From the NCBI GenBank assembly GCA_012522835.1, contig JAAYJR010000109.1, forward strand, positions 1 through 49,585: a stretch of DNA of 49,585 nt, in the 5' to 3' direction. Source of the DNA: Bacteroidales bacterium. GTDB lineage: Bacteria > Bacteroidota > Bacteroidia > Bacteroidales > Prolixibacteraceae. Under the pieces are notes generated by a model. That model saw only the letters and a program-made list of their open reading frames with translations, did no database searches and was not told the DNA's origin. Below are positions 30,511 to 46,445 of this stretch, piece by piece. Position 1 is the first letter of the stretch, and each line of letters starts with the position of its first letter. Position numbers and translations under genes: made by a program.

Positions 30511-31926
30511 CTATTGCTCAATTACTCGCTCAAGCAAAACTACATTTTCCACATGTTGGGTATGTGGAAACATATCAACAGGCTGCACTTTTATCACTGT
30601 GTAGTGACTGCTCAACAGATTTATATCACGTGCCTGTGTTGCGGGGTTACAACTGACGTAGACAATCTTCTCCGGCAATATCTCAAGCAAACTTTCAATT
30701 ACATCTTTATGCATGCCTGCTCTTGGGGGGTCTGTAATAATGACATCCGGTTTCCCGTGTTCCTTTGTAAAATTCAGTTTCAACAGTTCTTTTATGTCGC
30801 CTGTAAAAAAGAAGACATTATCAATTTGATTGAGGGATGCACTTATAACAGCATCATTTATGGCTGAAGGAACGTAATCGATACCAACTACTTTTTGGGC
30901 ATTTCCTGCAATAAACTGAGCAATCGTTCCGGTCCCGGTATAAAGGTCATAAACAATTTCCCGTCCTGTAAGCGCGGCAAATTCACGAACCACCTTATAT
31001 AAATTATATGCCTGCGCCGAATTTGTCTGAAAAAAACTTTTGGGCCCAATCCTGAATTTAAGATTTTCCATCTCTTCAAGTATGTAATCCCTCCCGTAAT
31101 ACAGCATAATATCAAGATCTGAAATTGTATCATTCCCTTTAGAATTGATTACATACATTAGTGAAGTGACGGACGGAAAATTTTCTTTTACCGAATTCAG
31201 CAGTCCGGAAAGGGCTTCCCTGTCATCCCTGAACACCGACAACACAACCATTACTTCATTTCTTGCAGAAGTCCTGATCATAAGGGTTCGCAAAAATCCT
31301 TTTTGATTGCGAATATCAAAAAATTCGAGGCCATTATCTATGGCATATTGATAAACATAAGTCCGTATAGCATTGGAAGGATCAGGCTGAAGCCAACATT
31401 TTTCAATATTGATTACTTTATCAAACTGGCCGCTGGCATTAAAACCCAGAGAATCAGAATCGAAAAAATTATTCCCCGAATCTAACTCTGCCCGTGTCAG
31501 CGAACTTCTGGTTGAAAAGGTGTACTCAAGTTTATTACGATAGAATATTTTATTTTCTGAAGCTAATATAGGAGATATTACAGGCAATTTAACTTTTCCA
31601 ATTCTCGTTAACTGGTCCACAACCTGCTTCTGTTTATAGAATAGTTGTTTTTCGTAGGGTAAAAATTGCCAGACACAGCCTCCGCAGTCTCCAAAATGAG
31701 AACAAAAAGGTTTAACTCTCTCTTTCGAAAATTCATAAATCCTGGTGATAACAGCTTCCTGGTAATTTTTTCTCTTCCTTATTACCTGAAGATCCACAAT
31801 GTCGCCTGGTATGGCGTGACGTGTAAAAACTACCATGTCGTTGATCTTCACCAATGCTTTTCCTTCAGATCCGATATCTTCTATACTGACCCTTTCATAA
31901 AATGGTTTTTTCCTCTTCCTGGTCAT
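30511..31926 (-). CDS. rlmD: 23S rRNA (uracil(1939)-C(5))-methyltransferase
   Basis: TRAM-like N-terminus; 'CSHFGDCGGCVWQFLPYEKQL' Fe-S motif; 'VYDLYTGTGTIAQF', 'DPPRAGM', 'IVYVSCNPATQARD'. Track ORF extends to 31938 from a TTG; first ATG is at 31926. Confidence 0.92.
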   Translation of the reverse strand: MTRKRKKPFYERVSIEDIGSEGKALVKINDMVVFTRHAIPGDIVDLQVIRKRKNYQEAVITRIYEFSKERVKPFCSHFGDCGGCVWQFLPYEKQLFYKQKQVVDQLTRIGKVKLPVISPILASENKIFYRNKLEYTFSTRSSLTRAELDSGNNFFDSDSLGFNASGQFDKVINIEKCWLQPDPSNAIRTYVYQYAIDNGLEFFDIRNQKGFLRTLMIRTSARNEVMVVLSVFRDDREALSGLLNSVKENFPSVTSLMYVINSKGNDTISDLDIMLYYGRDYILEEMENLKFRIGPKSFFQTNSAQAYNLYKVVREFAALTGREIVYDLYTGTGTIAQFIAGNAQKVVGIDYVPSAINDAVISASLNQIDNVFFFTGDIKELLKLNFTKEHGKPDVIITDPPRAGMHKDVIESLLEILPEKIVYVSCNPATQARDINLLSSHYTVIKVQPVDMFPHTQHVENVVLLERVIEQ

Positions 31927-31935
31927 TTTTTTGTG

Positions 31936-31943
31936 CAAATATA
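31936..31943 (-). promoter_or_regulatory. Putative -7 element TATATTTG of rlmD
   Basis: Reverse-strand TATATTTG only 9 nt from the ATG at 31926; implies a very short 5' UTR. Confidence 0.45.
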
Positions 31944-32090: not shown

Positions 32091-32098
32091 TACATTTG
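32091..32098 (+). promoter_or_regulatory. Putative -7 element TACATTTG upstream of a leader-like ORF
   Basis: Matches TAnnTTTG; no clear -33 element at the expected distance. Confidence 0.4.
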
Positions 32099-32108
32099 GT
32101 ATGATTTA

Positions 32109-32195
32109 ATGGTTGGTTTTATTTTCACAAATAAAATTATTAAGGGGAAAGCATCTTCTGTATTTATGATTGGTTTTGTGTTTAGGGGTTTGTAA
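32109..32195 (+). CDS. Putative 28-aa leader peptide MVGFIFTNKIIKGKASSVFMIGFVFRGL
   Basis: ATG to TAA read directly; starts 11 nt after TACATTTG; its codons 9-15 form the 5' arm of a long-range stem. Confidence 0.35.
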   Translation: MVGFIFTNKIIKGKASSVFMIGFVFRGL

Positions 32196-32253
32196 ATCAT
32201 CAATCATCTTCAAAAGCGTCCATAAGCTTTCCCCTTTCTTCTTTAATAATTTT
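32133..32253 (+). ncRNA. Candidate structured RNA: long-range stem upstream of the ABC-F gene
   Basis: AAAATTATTAAGGGGAAAGC (32133-32152) pairs with GCTTTCCCC (32226-32234) plus TTAATAATTTT (32243-32253), 20 bp with an 8-nt 3' bulge; inner ATGATTG (32166-32172)/CAATCAT (32201-32207) pairing. Confidence 0.45.
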
Positions 32254-32339
32254 TCATCATCGTGATATTATTTTCTTAAAAAAAGTGAATAAACTGTTTC
32301 GCACTAAAAAATAATCAATACCCATACATTTGGGATGTA

Positions 32340-32370
32340 TTTGTTTGATGCCTCTTTATAACTATCTTTG
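32340..32370 (+). promoter_or_regulatory. Promoter of ABC-F gene: TTTG-N19-TATCTTTG
   Basis: TTTG 32340-32343, 19-nt spacer, TATCTTTG 32363-32370, matching the Bacteroidetes -33/-7 consensus; ATG at 32391. Confidence 0.65.
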
Positions 32371-32390
32371 GCCTCATCGAAATTTCATCT

Positions 32391-34343
32391 ATGATTTCAG
32401 TAAATAAAATAAGTGTCAGTTTCGGAGGATTTGACCTGCTTAAGGATATTAACTTCATAATAAATAAGGGGGACAGAATAGGGTTAACGGGAAAAAACGG
32501 AGCCGGCAAAACAACATTATTAAAGTTGCTGGCCGGGATTTCGGACCCATCATCGGGCGAAGTAACCAGACAAAAGGATACATCTGTGGGCTATTTGGCG
32601 CAACAGATAGAAATAAAAGATACCAGCACACTTATGGGAGAAACAATGCTGGCGTTTGGTGAACTCATAAATCTGGAAAAAAATATTTCAAAACTGAATA
32701 AGGAATTACCCTCAACAACAGATTTTCATTCTGAAAATTATCTTAAAAAACTGGACAGTCTGACTGAAATGAACGAAAGGTATTCAATCCTCGGAGGAGA
32801 TACCTATCAGGCAGATCTGGAACAGACTTTGCTGGGACTGGGCTTTGAAAGAAATGATTTTAACAGGCCGACGTCAGAATTCAGCGGTGGCTGGCGTATG
32901 CGAATTGAACTGGCTAAGCTGCTTTTGAAAAAGCCCGATATAATATTACTTGACGAACCAACAAATCACCTCGATATAGAGTCAATACAGTGGCTCGAAA
33001 ACTTTCTGAAAAACTACAGAGGGGCTGTGATGCTGGTTTCGCACGATAAAGCTTTTCTTGATGCTGTATGTAACAGAATAATGGAAATTTCTCTTGGAAG
33101 AATTAACGATCAGAAAATGATCTATTCCGATTTTGTCAAATGGAAAAAGGAACAGAGGGAGATCAATCTGGCAGCATACAGGAACCAACAAAAAATGATT
33201 GAGGATACTGAAAAATTTATTGAAAGATTCCGGTATAAGGCAACAAAAGCAATACAGGTTCAGTCAAGGATCAAGCAACTTGAAAAAATTGAACGTATTG
33301 AAATAGAGGAGAAAGACAAAGCTGAACTAAAGATTTATTTTCCACCTGTTCCATCTTCAGGGAAAGTTGTAATCGAGGGAAAAAATATTTCTAAAAGCTA
33401 TGGCCTCCACGTGGTGTTAAATAATGTCAACCTTACTGTGGAAAGGGGCGAGAAAGTAGCATTTGTCGGCAGAAACGGAGAAGGGAAAACCACTTTGGTT
33501 AAAATCATACTCCAACAACTGGAACATGAAGGGAGCATGAAAACAGGCCACAATGTTAAGACAGGGTATTTTGCACAGAACCAGTCAGATATGCTGGATG
33601 GGGAACTTACTGTACTGGAGACTATCGATGAAATCGCAACAGGAGAGATCAGAACAAAGATCAGGGATATACTTGGAGCATTTCTTTTCTCAGGTGATGA
33701 TGTCGACAAAAAAGTTAAAGTACTCAGCGGAGGAGAAAAAACAAGACTGGCTATGATACGGCTGATGTTGAAACCTGTTAACCTGCTGGTTCTTGATGAA
33801 CCGACAAACCACTTCGACATGCAGTCGAAAGAGATATTAAAAGAGGCCCTGATTCATTTTAAAGGCACGGTTATATTAGTGTCTCATGACAGGGATTTTC
33901 TGGACGGAATTGTCAACTGTGTTTATGAATTCAGAAACAGAGCGGTAAAGCAACATCTTGGTGGCATATACGACTTCCTGAGAAAAAAAAGGCTCGAATC
34001 TATGCAGGATTATGAAAAAGCAGGGATACAAAACAAGTCTGATAAAAAAGCTACAGAGAAACCACGCAACGGAGAGGGACAGAAGTATTTTGAGGAGCGC
34101 AAAGAGATCAACAGAAATATATCACGTCTGGAAAAAAAGATATCTGAAACAGAACTAAGCATTGAAAAACTTGAAGAGGAGATGTCTGCCGTAAACCTTA
34201 AATTATCTGCAACCGGTGTACTTAACAATACATCCATCTTCGAATCGTATGATTCTTTGCAGGAGGAACTGAACAAAACTCTTTCAATATGGGAAGAGTT
34301 ACATACAGAATTAGAAAACTGGAAATCTAAAAAAACCTGGTAG
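32391..34343 (+). CDS. ABC-F family ATP-binding cassette protein
   Basis: Two ABC domains: 'GLTGKNGAGKTTLLKLLAG', 'EFSGGWRMRIELAKLLLKKPDIILLDEPTNHLDI', 'FVGRNGEGKTTLVKIIL', 'VLSGGEKTRLAMIRLMLKPVNLLVLDEPTNHFD'; no TM segments; C-terminal coiled coil. Confidence 0.95.
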   Translation: MISVNKISVSFGGFDLLKDINFIINKGDRIGLTGKNGAGKTTLLKLLAGISDPSSGEVTRQKDTSVGYLAQQIEIKDTSTLMGETMLAFGELINLEKNISKLNKELPSTTDFHSENYLKKLDSLTEMNERYSILGGDTYQADLEQTLLGLGFERNDFNRPTSEFSGGWRMRIELAKLLLKKPDIILLDEPTNHLDIESIQWLENFLKNYRGAVMLVSHDKAFLDAVCNRIMEISLGRINDQKMIYSDFVKWKKEQREINLAAYRNQQKMIEDTEKFIERFRYKATKAIQVQSRIKQLEKIERIEIEEKDKAELKIYFPPVPSSGKVVIEGKNISKSYGLHVVLNNVNLTVERGEKVAFVGRNGEGKTTLVKIILQQLEHEGSMKTGHNVKTGYFAQNQSDMLDGELTVLETIDEIATGEIRTKIRDILGAFLFSGDDVDKKVKVLSGGEKTRLAMIRLMLKPVNLLVLDEPTNHFDMQSKEILKEALIHFKGTVILVSHDRDFLDGIVNCVYEFRNRAVKQHLGGIYDFLRKKRLESMQDYEKAGIQNKSDKKATEKPRNGEGQKYFEERKEINRNISRLEKKISETELSIEKLEEEMSAVNLKLSATGVLNNTSIFESYDSLQEELNKTLSIWEELHTELENWKSKKTW

Positions 34344-44756: not shown

Positions 44757-44989
44757 GCTTTAATTTTTACTGTTAAATTCTGCCGGCTAAATATTTGATT
44801 CTTAAACCCTGCTAACTTAACCAGATTTATTTAAACAGAGAGGTAAAAATAATAAATCAAATTTAGTCTGCTAATTATTAATTTGTGCATAATTTAATCA
44901 GACAATTTTAATCATAAATACAATTAAATTATCGACGCTCATGTACAATTAATCCAAAAACATATAAAAATGCCCCTAAAAAGTATAAA

Positions 44990-45040: not shown

Positions 45041-45074
45041 ATTTACAAACTTAGGACGATTAAATCACGTGAAG

Positions 45075-46445
45075 ATGACTAACCAAAAGAGAAATGTAAA
45101 ATACGAAATTTTTATCTTAGAAGACAATACCCTTTATGCCCAGGTGCTTAAGAAACAGCTTACAGATAATAATTATCAGGTAAGAGTATTTTACAATGCC
45201 CGTGATTGCATGAATGCATTGGATGATCACCAGCCAGACGTACTTACTCTTGACTATACACTCCCCGACATGTCAGGACACGAAGCTCTGAAGGAGATCC
45301 AAAAAAAATCACCTCAAACAAATATTATAATAATATCTGCCCAGGAGAGTATTGATACTGCTATTGAACTAATGAAAAACGGAGCTTATGATTATATCAT
45401 GAAGGCTTCGGATACAAGGGAAAAACTGACTAATATTATTAAGAACATTTATGATTCTGACCAGCTGAAACAGGAAAACCAGCGACTGAAGGGGGCTATA
45501 AAGGATCGTTACAATTTCAGGAAACTAATAAAAGGCAACAGCAGGGAGATAGACCAGGTATTTTCATTAATGGAGAAAGCATCGCAAACCAATATCTCTG
45601 TATCTATCAGCGGTGAGACTGGAACGGGCAAAGAACTGGTCGCAAAAGGTATACACTATAACTCAACCCGCAGCAGCAAACCATTTATTCCTGTTAATGT
45701 ATCTGCAATCCCCGACACTCTCATTGAAAGCGAGCTATTCGGACATGAAAAAGGGGCTTTCACCAACGCTGAATTCCGGAAGATAGGTAAATTTGAACAG
45801 GCAAACACAGGAACACTTTTTCTTGATGAAATTGCTGACCTGACCCTAAACCTTCAGGCCAAACTGCTCAGGGTTATACAGGAGAGAGAACTCACGCGGC
45901 TTGGAGGTAATGAGATCATACCACTTGATGTGAGAATCCTTACAGCTACACATAAAAATCTTGCCAATCTGGTTGCCAATGGAAAATTCAGACAGGATCT
46001 CTATTACCGGCTTCTGGGACTGCCAATTGAGGTACCAGCGTTACGGCACCGGGGAAAAGATATCATTTTACTCGCCAAACATTTTGTAAATGAATTTTGC
46101 AGGGAGAATGACATGCCGGTAAAAACTATATCCGAAGATACAAAGAAGGTGCTCTTTTCGTATCACTTTCCCGGCAATATCAGGGAGTTAAAAACAATGA
46201 TGGAACTGGCCTGCGTAATGACTAACAGCGACATAATAAAACCGGTGCATCTGAATATTAATGTTGAAGAAAATGTGAACCACCTGCTGGCTGACGAAAG
46301 GACCCTGGAAGAGTATAACCATGAAATTGTTAAACATTTTCTGAATAAATATAATCATAACGTGCGGCTGGTTGCTTCAAAACTTGATATAGGAAAATCT
46401 ACAATATACAGGATGCTGCAAAATAAAGAGTTGTCGTTTAACTGA
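45075..46445 (+). CDS. Sigma-54-dependent NtrC-family response regulator
   Basis: REC 'IFILEDNTLYAQVLKK...LDYTLPDMSGHEAL', AAA+ 'GETGTGKELVAKGIH', 'ESELFGHEKGAFTNA' (GAFTGA-like), Fis-type HTH. Start placed at 45075 or GTG 45069, downstream of the promoter-like inverted repeat. Confidence 0.93.
   Translation: MTNQKRNVKYEIFILEDNTLYAQVLKKQLTDNNYQVRVFYNARDCMNALDDHQPDVLTLDYTLPDMSGHEALKEIQKKSPQTNIIIISAQESIDTAIELMKNGAYDYIMKASDTREKLTNIIKNIYDSDQLKQENQRLKGAIKDRYNFRKLIKGNSREIDQVFSLMEKASQTNISVSISGETGTGKELVAKGIHYNSTRSSKPFIPVNVSAIPDTLIESELFGHEKGAFTNAEFRKIGKFEQANTGTLFLDEIADLTLNLQAKLLRVIQERELTRLGGNEIIPLDVRILTATHKNLANLVANGKFRQDLYYRLLGLPIEVPALRHRGKDIILLAKHFVNEFCRENDMPVKTISEDTKKVLFSYHFPGNIRELKTMMELACVMTNSDIIKPVHLNINVEENVNHLLADERTLEEYNHEIVKHFLNKYNHNVRLVASKLDIGKSTIYRMLQNKELSFN

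Follow-up and report, generated by a model that had tools for sequence, protein, structure and literature searches.

Small-RNA regulation in Bacteroidota is, to our knowledge, known mostly from gut Bacteroides. Within the phylum, the nearest known kind to the RNA considered here is FopS/GibS, a multi-copy family of Bacteroides thetaiotaomicron; FopS consists of a single-stranded 5′ part with the R1 seed sequence followed by a terminator hairpin, occurs in 14 copies, uses sigma-ABfr promoters only and is found in Bacteroidaceae (PMC11697453). Comparable in layout is the LuxO-sigma-54-Qrr system of Vibrio, in which several sibling RNAs per genome are transcribed from sigma-54 promoters, the NtrC-type regulator LuxO binds a palindrome with a 3-nt spacer (TTGCA-W3-TGCAA) at positions −89 to −119 (PMC11443567), and the Qrr RNAs repress LuxO production (PMC3262071). 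Qrr control is post-transcriptional and also reaches the master regulators of quorum sensing. Two further precedents concern NtrC-type proteins. Some of those without the GAFTGA loop, among them NtrC of Caulobacter and Rhodobacter and VpsR, act on sigma-70 promoters (PMC10274813). In rhizobia, the small RNA NfeR1 forms a double-negative loop with NtrBC in nitrogen metabolism (PMC10746234).

The window analysed here is a 49,585-nt stretch, contig JAAYJR010000109.1 of a Bacteroidales bacterium placed in Prolixibacteraceae (GCA_012522835.1). It carries a member of a new multi-copy family of predicted small RNAs that is restricted to a clade of this family of bacteria. With Qrr the new RNAs share layout, not homology: a genome has several siblings, their promoters are of sigma-54 type, a palindrome whose halves are 3 nt apart lies near −90 and is proposed to be bound by an NtrC-type regulator, and there is a predicted repression of that regulator by the RNA, which in Vibrio has been shown. 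They differ from Qrr in phylum, in RNA sequence (an Rfam search gave no homology to Qrr), in the palindrome (TTCCCA-N3-TGGGAA), in having two helices against four Qrr stem-loops and in one copy that uses a sigma-A type promoter; no link to quorum sensing is known here. FopS is set apart by description: the new family has a closing P1 helix, one to six copies per genome, mostly sigma-54 promoters and a home in Prolixibacteraceae, although the promoter class of the window is, as in FopS/GibS, of sigma-A type. What the system shares with NfeR1-NtrBC is a small RNA that acts in trans and is tied by feedback to an NtrC-type system; the RNA and the phylum there are unrelated to those here.

Our preferred reading, to which we assign a probability of about 0.7 as a whole, is that positions 32104–32260 specify a stand-alone trans-acting small RNA. 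An NtrC-type response regulator, most likely the product of 45075–46445, would bind TTCCCA-N3-TGGGAA, some 90 nt ahead of the RNA start, and so activate transcription. Most paralogs would use sigma-54 for this, whereas the window copy would use its TAnnTTTG promoter of sigma-A type. Segments that hardly vary between copies, enclosed by the covarying P1 helix, would pair with translation-start regions of mRNAs; the likeliest target found so far is the activator's own mRNA, which would give negative feedback. The features are collected in Table 1.

Table 1. Features of the predicted small-RNA locus, its neighbours and the candidate activator gene in the window.
Feature	Position	Strand	Remarks
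rlmD	30511–31938	−	NCBIfam TIGR00479 and synteny; adjoins one RNA copy in most carriers
Palindrome GTCCCATTTTGGGAA	32006–32020		Proposed activator site; consensus TTCCCA-N3-TGGGAA
TACATTTG	32091–32098	+	Bacteroidota −7 element (TAnnTTTG) of the RNA promoter
Predicted small RNA	32104–32260	+	Conserved block; ends approximate, start placed from the −7 element
28-codon ORF	32109–32195	+	Probable by-product
P1 helix, 5′ arm GGGGAAAGC	32144–32152	+	Covarying helix
P2 helix, 5′ arm ATGATTG	32166–32172	+	Predicted
Near-invariant segments round the P2 loop and linker (GTTTAGGGGTTTGTAAAT; ATCTTCAAAAGCGTCC)	32173–32221	+	Proposed pairing regions; conservation, complementarity
P2 helix, 3′ arm CAATCAT	32201–32207	+	Predicted
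P1 helix, 3′ arm GCTTTCCCC	32226–32234	+	Covarying helix; U-rich tract next
Separate promoter-like site of ABC-F, TTTG-N19-TATCTTTG	32340–32370	+	Read directly
ABC-F gene	32391–34343	+	NCBIfam NF000355; ATG at 32391; neighbour, outside the RNA system
Predicted pairing patches, activator mRNA	45041–45050, 45054–45058, 45070–45078	+	Prediction only
NtrC-type response regulator	45075–46445	+	Candidate RNA activator; longest ORF starts at 44970
GAFTNA loop	45753–45770	+	GAFTGA in the orthologues checked

When 60 relatives were searched at the nucleotide level, the whole or part of 32091–32244 was matched at 83–95% identity in 11 further Prolixibacteraceae genomes, some of them at more than one place, and the longest matches started at or before TACATTTG. 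A pattern for the core recovered 63 true loci in GTDB genomes, which belong to Mariniphaga, Draconibacterium, Maribellus, Tangfeifania and metagenome-assembled genomes named Prolixibacteraceae or, less precisely, Bacteroidales, Bacteroidota and in one case Chlorobiota. Pattern matches in Endozoicomonas and Salinisphaera (L038, L048, L079, L080), where the rest of the RNA is absent, were rejected as chance. With a covariance model the RNA was found in 51 of 140 family genomes at one to six copies each (one in the window's genome), with zero matches in 294 other Bacteroidia genomes; a second model, run on 344 genomes of the order, returned members of the same family and three weak matches judged chance. 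More than 600 genomes beyond the 140 of the family yielded no convincing homologue. Weak model matches in other genera and families (L185–L199) were likewise put down to chance, apart from L186:1501–1603, a 28-bit match in another genus of the family that ends in CAATAATCATCAAAAAGCCTCC and is possibly a distant relative. No family of Rfam 15, 6S RNA included, matched at gathering score, and at E values up to 10 only two chance-level matches appeared. The RNA was not found described in the open-licence papers searched. Among the individual copies, L022:1905–2004 has an expanded AATCATC repeat and lies near a divergent second copy on the opposite strand (L022:2377–2465, 38 bits), and L087:5564–5656 and L087:6234–6326 form a tandem pair, 670 nt apart, with almost identical upstream regions.

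The evidence against chance for a structured element is comparative and does not come from folding energy, which is unremarkable (z = −1.6 for 32091–32270). The initial annotation had drawn a 20-bp stem between 32133–32152 and 32226–32253. Its inner 9 bp, here called P1, are conserved and covary; the outer AT-rich part is unconserved in relatives and goes into a separate 5′ hairpin in the minimum-energy fold. In a structure-guided alignment of 41 distinct copies, itself fitted to the model, seven of the nine P1 pairs show changes on both sides, giving 41 double-change cells versus 10.5 in shuffles, and none of 500 shuffles scored as high. This signal was lost when the partner was slid, and the change from GGGGAAAGC/GCTTTCCCC to GGGTAGAAC/GTTCTACCC is plain in the raw sequences. 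The predicted P2 helix is almost invariant, so covariation is uninformative about it either way. We infer that 32104–32260 is transcribed. A search of the window sequence found no separate terminator-like hairpin for this RNA; such a hairpin is present in 23 of 28 copies among relatives of the same promoter class.

TAnnTTTG is the sigma-A −7 element in Bacteroidota. By this element, versus sigma-54 −24/−12 boxes, the RNA copies fall into two promoter classes. The TAnnTTTG class has the leader GATTTAATGG and comprises, in four genera including that of the window, the copy linked to rlmD; the window's own copy is of this sigma-A type, its TACATTTG being equivalent to TATATTTG or TATCTTTG in other copies of the class. 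A second TACATTTG stands at 32325–32332, between the RNA and the promoter-like site of ABC-F. Most paralogs belong to the sigma-54 class. The window's genome has a gene for RpoN, as do 34 of 36 relatives that were searched for it. The palindrome TTCCCA-N3-TGGGAA lies upstream of most copies in both classes. In counts that include related sequences, are not independent trials and are all inflated by relatedness, 34 of 38 second-class copies score at least 8 of 12 for the sigma-54 boxes (5.8% of shuffles), 24 of the 38 reaching 9 or more (1% of shuffles), and all 34 distinct TAnnTTTG-class copies score at least 10 of 12 for the palindrome (0.6% of shuffles). Two copies, L020 and L026, have neither palindrome nor sigma-54 box.

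The palindrome of the window matches the consensus at 11 of 12 positions. The window holds one match at up to two mismatches where chance would give 3.7; the argument therefore relies on where the palindrome lies and on its conservation. In most sigma-54 copies, 63–65 nt separate the centre of the palindrome from the −24 GG; in the TAnnTTTG class the centre is 77–80 nt from the −7 element, which places the presumed start site at a similar distance in both. A family-wide search with the composite element gave 29 matches in carriers, and comparison of their coordinates with the RNA loci placed 26 of the 29 immediately upstream of an RNA copy. Palindromes inside ORFs (L248, L259, L260, L267) were treated as chance. 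We propose that the palindrome is the site of the activator.

Sigma-54 promoters require an activator of the NtrC class. A search for perfect palindromes in 14 carriers led to a candidate: in the carrier G001, a gene for a response-regulator activator starts 104 nt downstream of a perfect palindrome (12/12). Its orthologue in the window, 63% identical over 440 aa, is 13 kb from the RNA and encodes a REC domain, a sigma-54 activator AAA+ domain and a C-terminal HTH (PF00072 and PF00158 far above cut-off, the HTH weakly recognised by Pfam). The linkage recurs in 14 other genomes, at approximately 13–21 kb in six (G007, G028, G145, G146, G025, G097) and at 15–21 kb in eight more. In the stretches fetched, the gene was not seen within 20 kb of the RNA in G009, G029, G122 and G023, nor was it found near rlmD in non-carriers, in stretches of up to 20 kb. 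The best palindromes before other activator genes score 11/12 in G025, 11/12 in G097 (at about −250) and 10/12 in G007; the best one upstream of the window's gene reaches only 9/12. From linkage and palindromes we infer that the product of this gene is the most likely activator of the RNA.

The GAFTGA sigma-54 contact loop is absent from the window's protein, which reads GAFTNA; with the glycine codon of G007 as reference, this takes two or more base substitutions; all other orthologues checked read GAFTGA. Such a loop would fit the sigma-A type promoter of the window copy in the manner of the NtrC-type proteins without GAFTGA mentioned above. This is only a lead, because Mariniphaga genomes of the same promoter class retain GAFTGA, and one residue is changed here, not the whole loop. 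The changed loop, the lack of a sigma-54 box in its promoter class and the weak palindrome before the window's gene would also suit a model that keeps the RNA family but has some other regulator bind the palindrome, the linked NtrC-type protein being a coincidence. We consider that model unlikely: the palindromes before the activator gene in G001, G025 and G097, the repeated linkage and the NtrC-class activator that sigma-54 promoters need all speak against it.

A pattern search for long complementary targets gave no excess over the reversed control and no long common complement. Among 571 start regions scanned, the activator genes of G001 and G007 ranked 6 and 8, which is where the idea of feedback came from. 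In a duplex-energy test that ignores RNA accessibility and relatedness, so that feedback is suggested only, eight activator orthologues (G001 and G007 included) had a mean of −21.3 versus −16.6 for 565 others (resampling P = 0.001), four of the eight containing perfect runs of 10–12 nt, and a second set of seven had −22.8 versus −17.0 (P = 5e-5), with a long perfect run in one. The segments used in the predicted pairing, for example TCATCTTCA/TGAAGATGA, differ between genera. In the window, the predicted patches were chosen by eye and the best single duplex leaves some of them unused; the third covers the start codon at 45075–45077. Repression of the activator's mRNA by the RNA, and with it negative feedback, is a weakly supported prediction. 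The scan also ranked first and fourth, for complementarity to the RNA core, the start regions of two ORFs of 489 and 497 aa (L283:112–1578, L281:192–1682), which occupy the place of rlmD in two genus-g2 genomes and are a possible second target.

The lack of a clear common mRNA target leaves some room for a stand-alone RNA that binds a protein, as sponge or scaffold, and does not base-pair with mRNA; its long near-invariant segments and conserved structured frame would suit that role too. Two points weigh against this minority reading, which we hold to be improbable: in two sets, pairing is better with the start regions of activator genes than with other start regions, and small RNAs that act by pairing commonly come as several copies under one regulator (PMC4211561).

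The regulator may have further outputs. Genus g5 has additional palindromes at 75–77 nt from sigma-54-like boxes, a distance longer by roughly one helical turn. One such site precedes an operon that encodes giant CHU_C/cadherin/SprB proteins of 3272–3959 aa (L262:4005–15881, 3959 aa; L263:4610–14425, 3272 aa), and a second one precedes PorP/SprF. In two genomes of genus g10 (L264:6782, L265:6662), the palindrome is upstream of PorP/SprF with no clear sigma-54 box, and PorP/SprF comes after a 2087-aa PKD/HYR/SprB-repeat protein. These sites hint at surface adhesion as an output of the circuit. PorP/SprF and adhesin start regions were not enriched as RNA targets in the scan of 571 start regions.

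The scatter of the copies over several loci of a genome, with one pair in tandem, could also be the mark of a mobile repeat that spread by transposition and has no function of its own. We find this scarcely credible in view of the compensatory changes in P1, the near-constant spacing of regulator site and promoter while the intervening sequence diverges, and the one copy that keeps its place next to rlmD from genus to genus; nothing matching the family turned up in the phages, plasmids and viral contigs searched.

Some antibiotic-resistance ABC-F genes are controlled by ribosome-mediated attenuation. The initial annotation had interpreted the locus in this way, as a ribosome-sensing leader of the downstream ABC-F gene, a member of the ribosomal-protection-like family, and had named a structured RNA or an independent sRNA as alternatives. 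All the elements it listed are present where it had placed them, and it is the alternatives that hold. Most carriers looked at have an RNA copy beside rlmD, the only neighbour gene common among paralogs; the other copies occupy unrelated loci. Downstream of the rlmD-linked copy lies ABC-F in many carriers and GpsA, a Na:Ala symporter, an acetyl-CoA hydrolase or a sortilin-like gene elsewhere, and in Draconibacterium the RNA keeps its rlmD-flanking site with a downstream gene that is not ABC-F. Conversely, the RNA-free genomes L202 and L204 keep the divergent rlmD-ABC-F pair with about 160–200 bp between the genes, compared with 452 bp in the window. The promoter noted between the element and the ABC-F start was confirmed as a promoter-like site, and a TTATCTTTGG motif recurs in relatives at a similar place. 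Judged from these genome comparisons, the predicted RNA is independent of ABC-F in evolution.

The 28-codon ORF is there as described, and as a gene it is unconserved. In several relatives the frame from the first ATG stops after 7–8 codons, the inner ATG is missing in 11 of 41 distinct copies, frames and start codons differ among copies, and variable sites fall 4/4/2 on codon positions 1/2/3, with the third position unfavoured. It looks like a by-product. The attenuator model, in which a ribosome on this ORF melts the stem and RNA polymerase reads into ABC-F, is the least credible of the alternatives: the window has the small ORF and stem of known attenuators, with ABC-F downstream in the same direction as in many relatives, but RNA and ABC-F each persist without the other, RNA copies sit at unrelated loci, the ORF is unconserved and ABC-F has a promoter-like site of its own.

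Taken further, the preferred reading leads to a more tentative proposal, which we put somewhat below even odds. A LuxO/Qrr-like circuit may have evolved independently in Prolixibacteraceae, with the RNA feeding back on a regulator that also controls giant type-IX-secreted cadherin/SprB adhesins and their PorP/SprF partner; within the clade, one RNA copy would differ between sigma-54 and sigma-A while keeping the same enhancer site, and GAFTGA would have begun to change in the window's lineage. The system described here would add a small-RNA family for which a candidate regulator and a binding site can be named and a feedback loop put to the test, and would amount to a convergent sigma-54/small-RNA circuit in a distant phylum. 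The natural difference in sigma factor at the same RNA gene, with the enhancer site retained, would offer a tractable case of promoter evolution.
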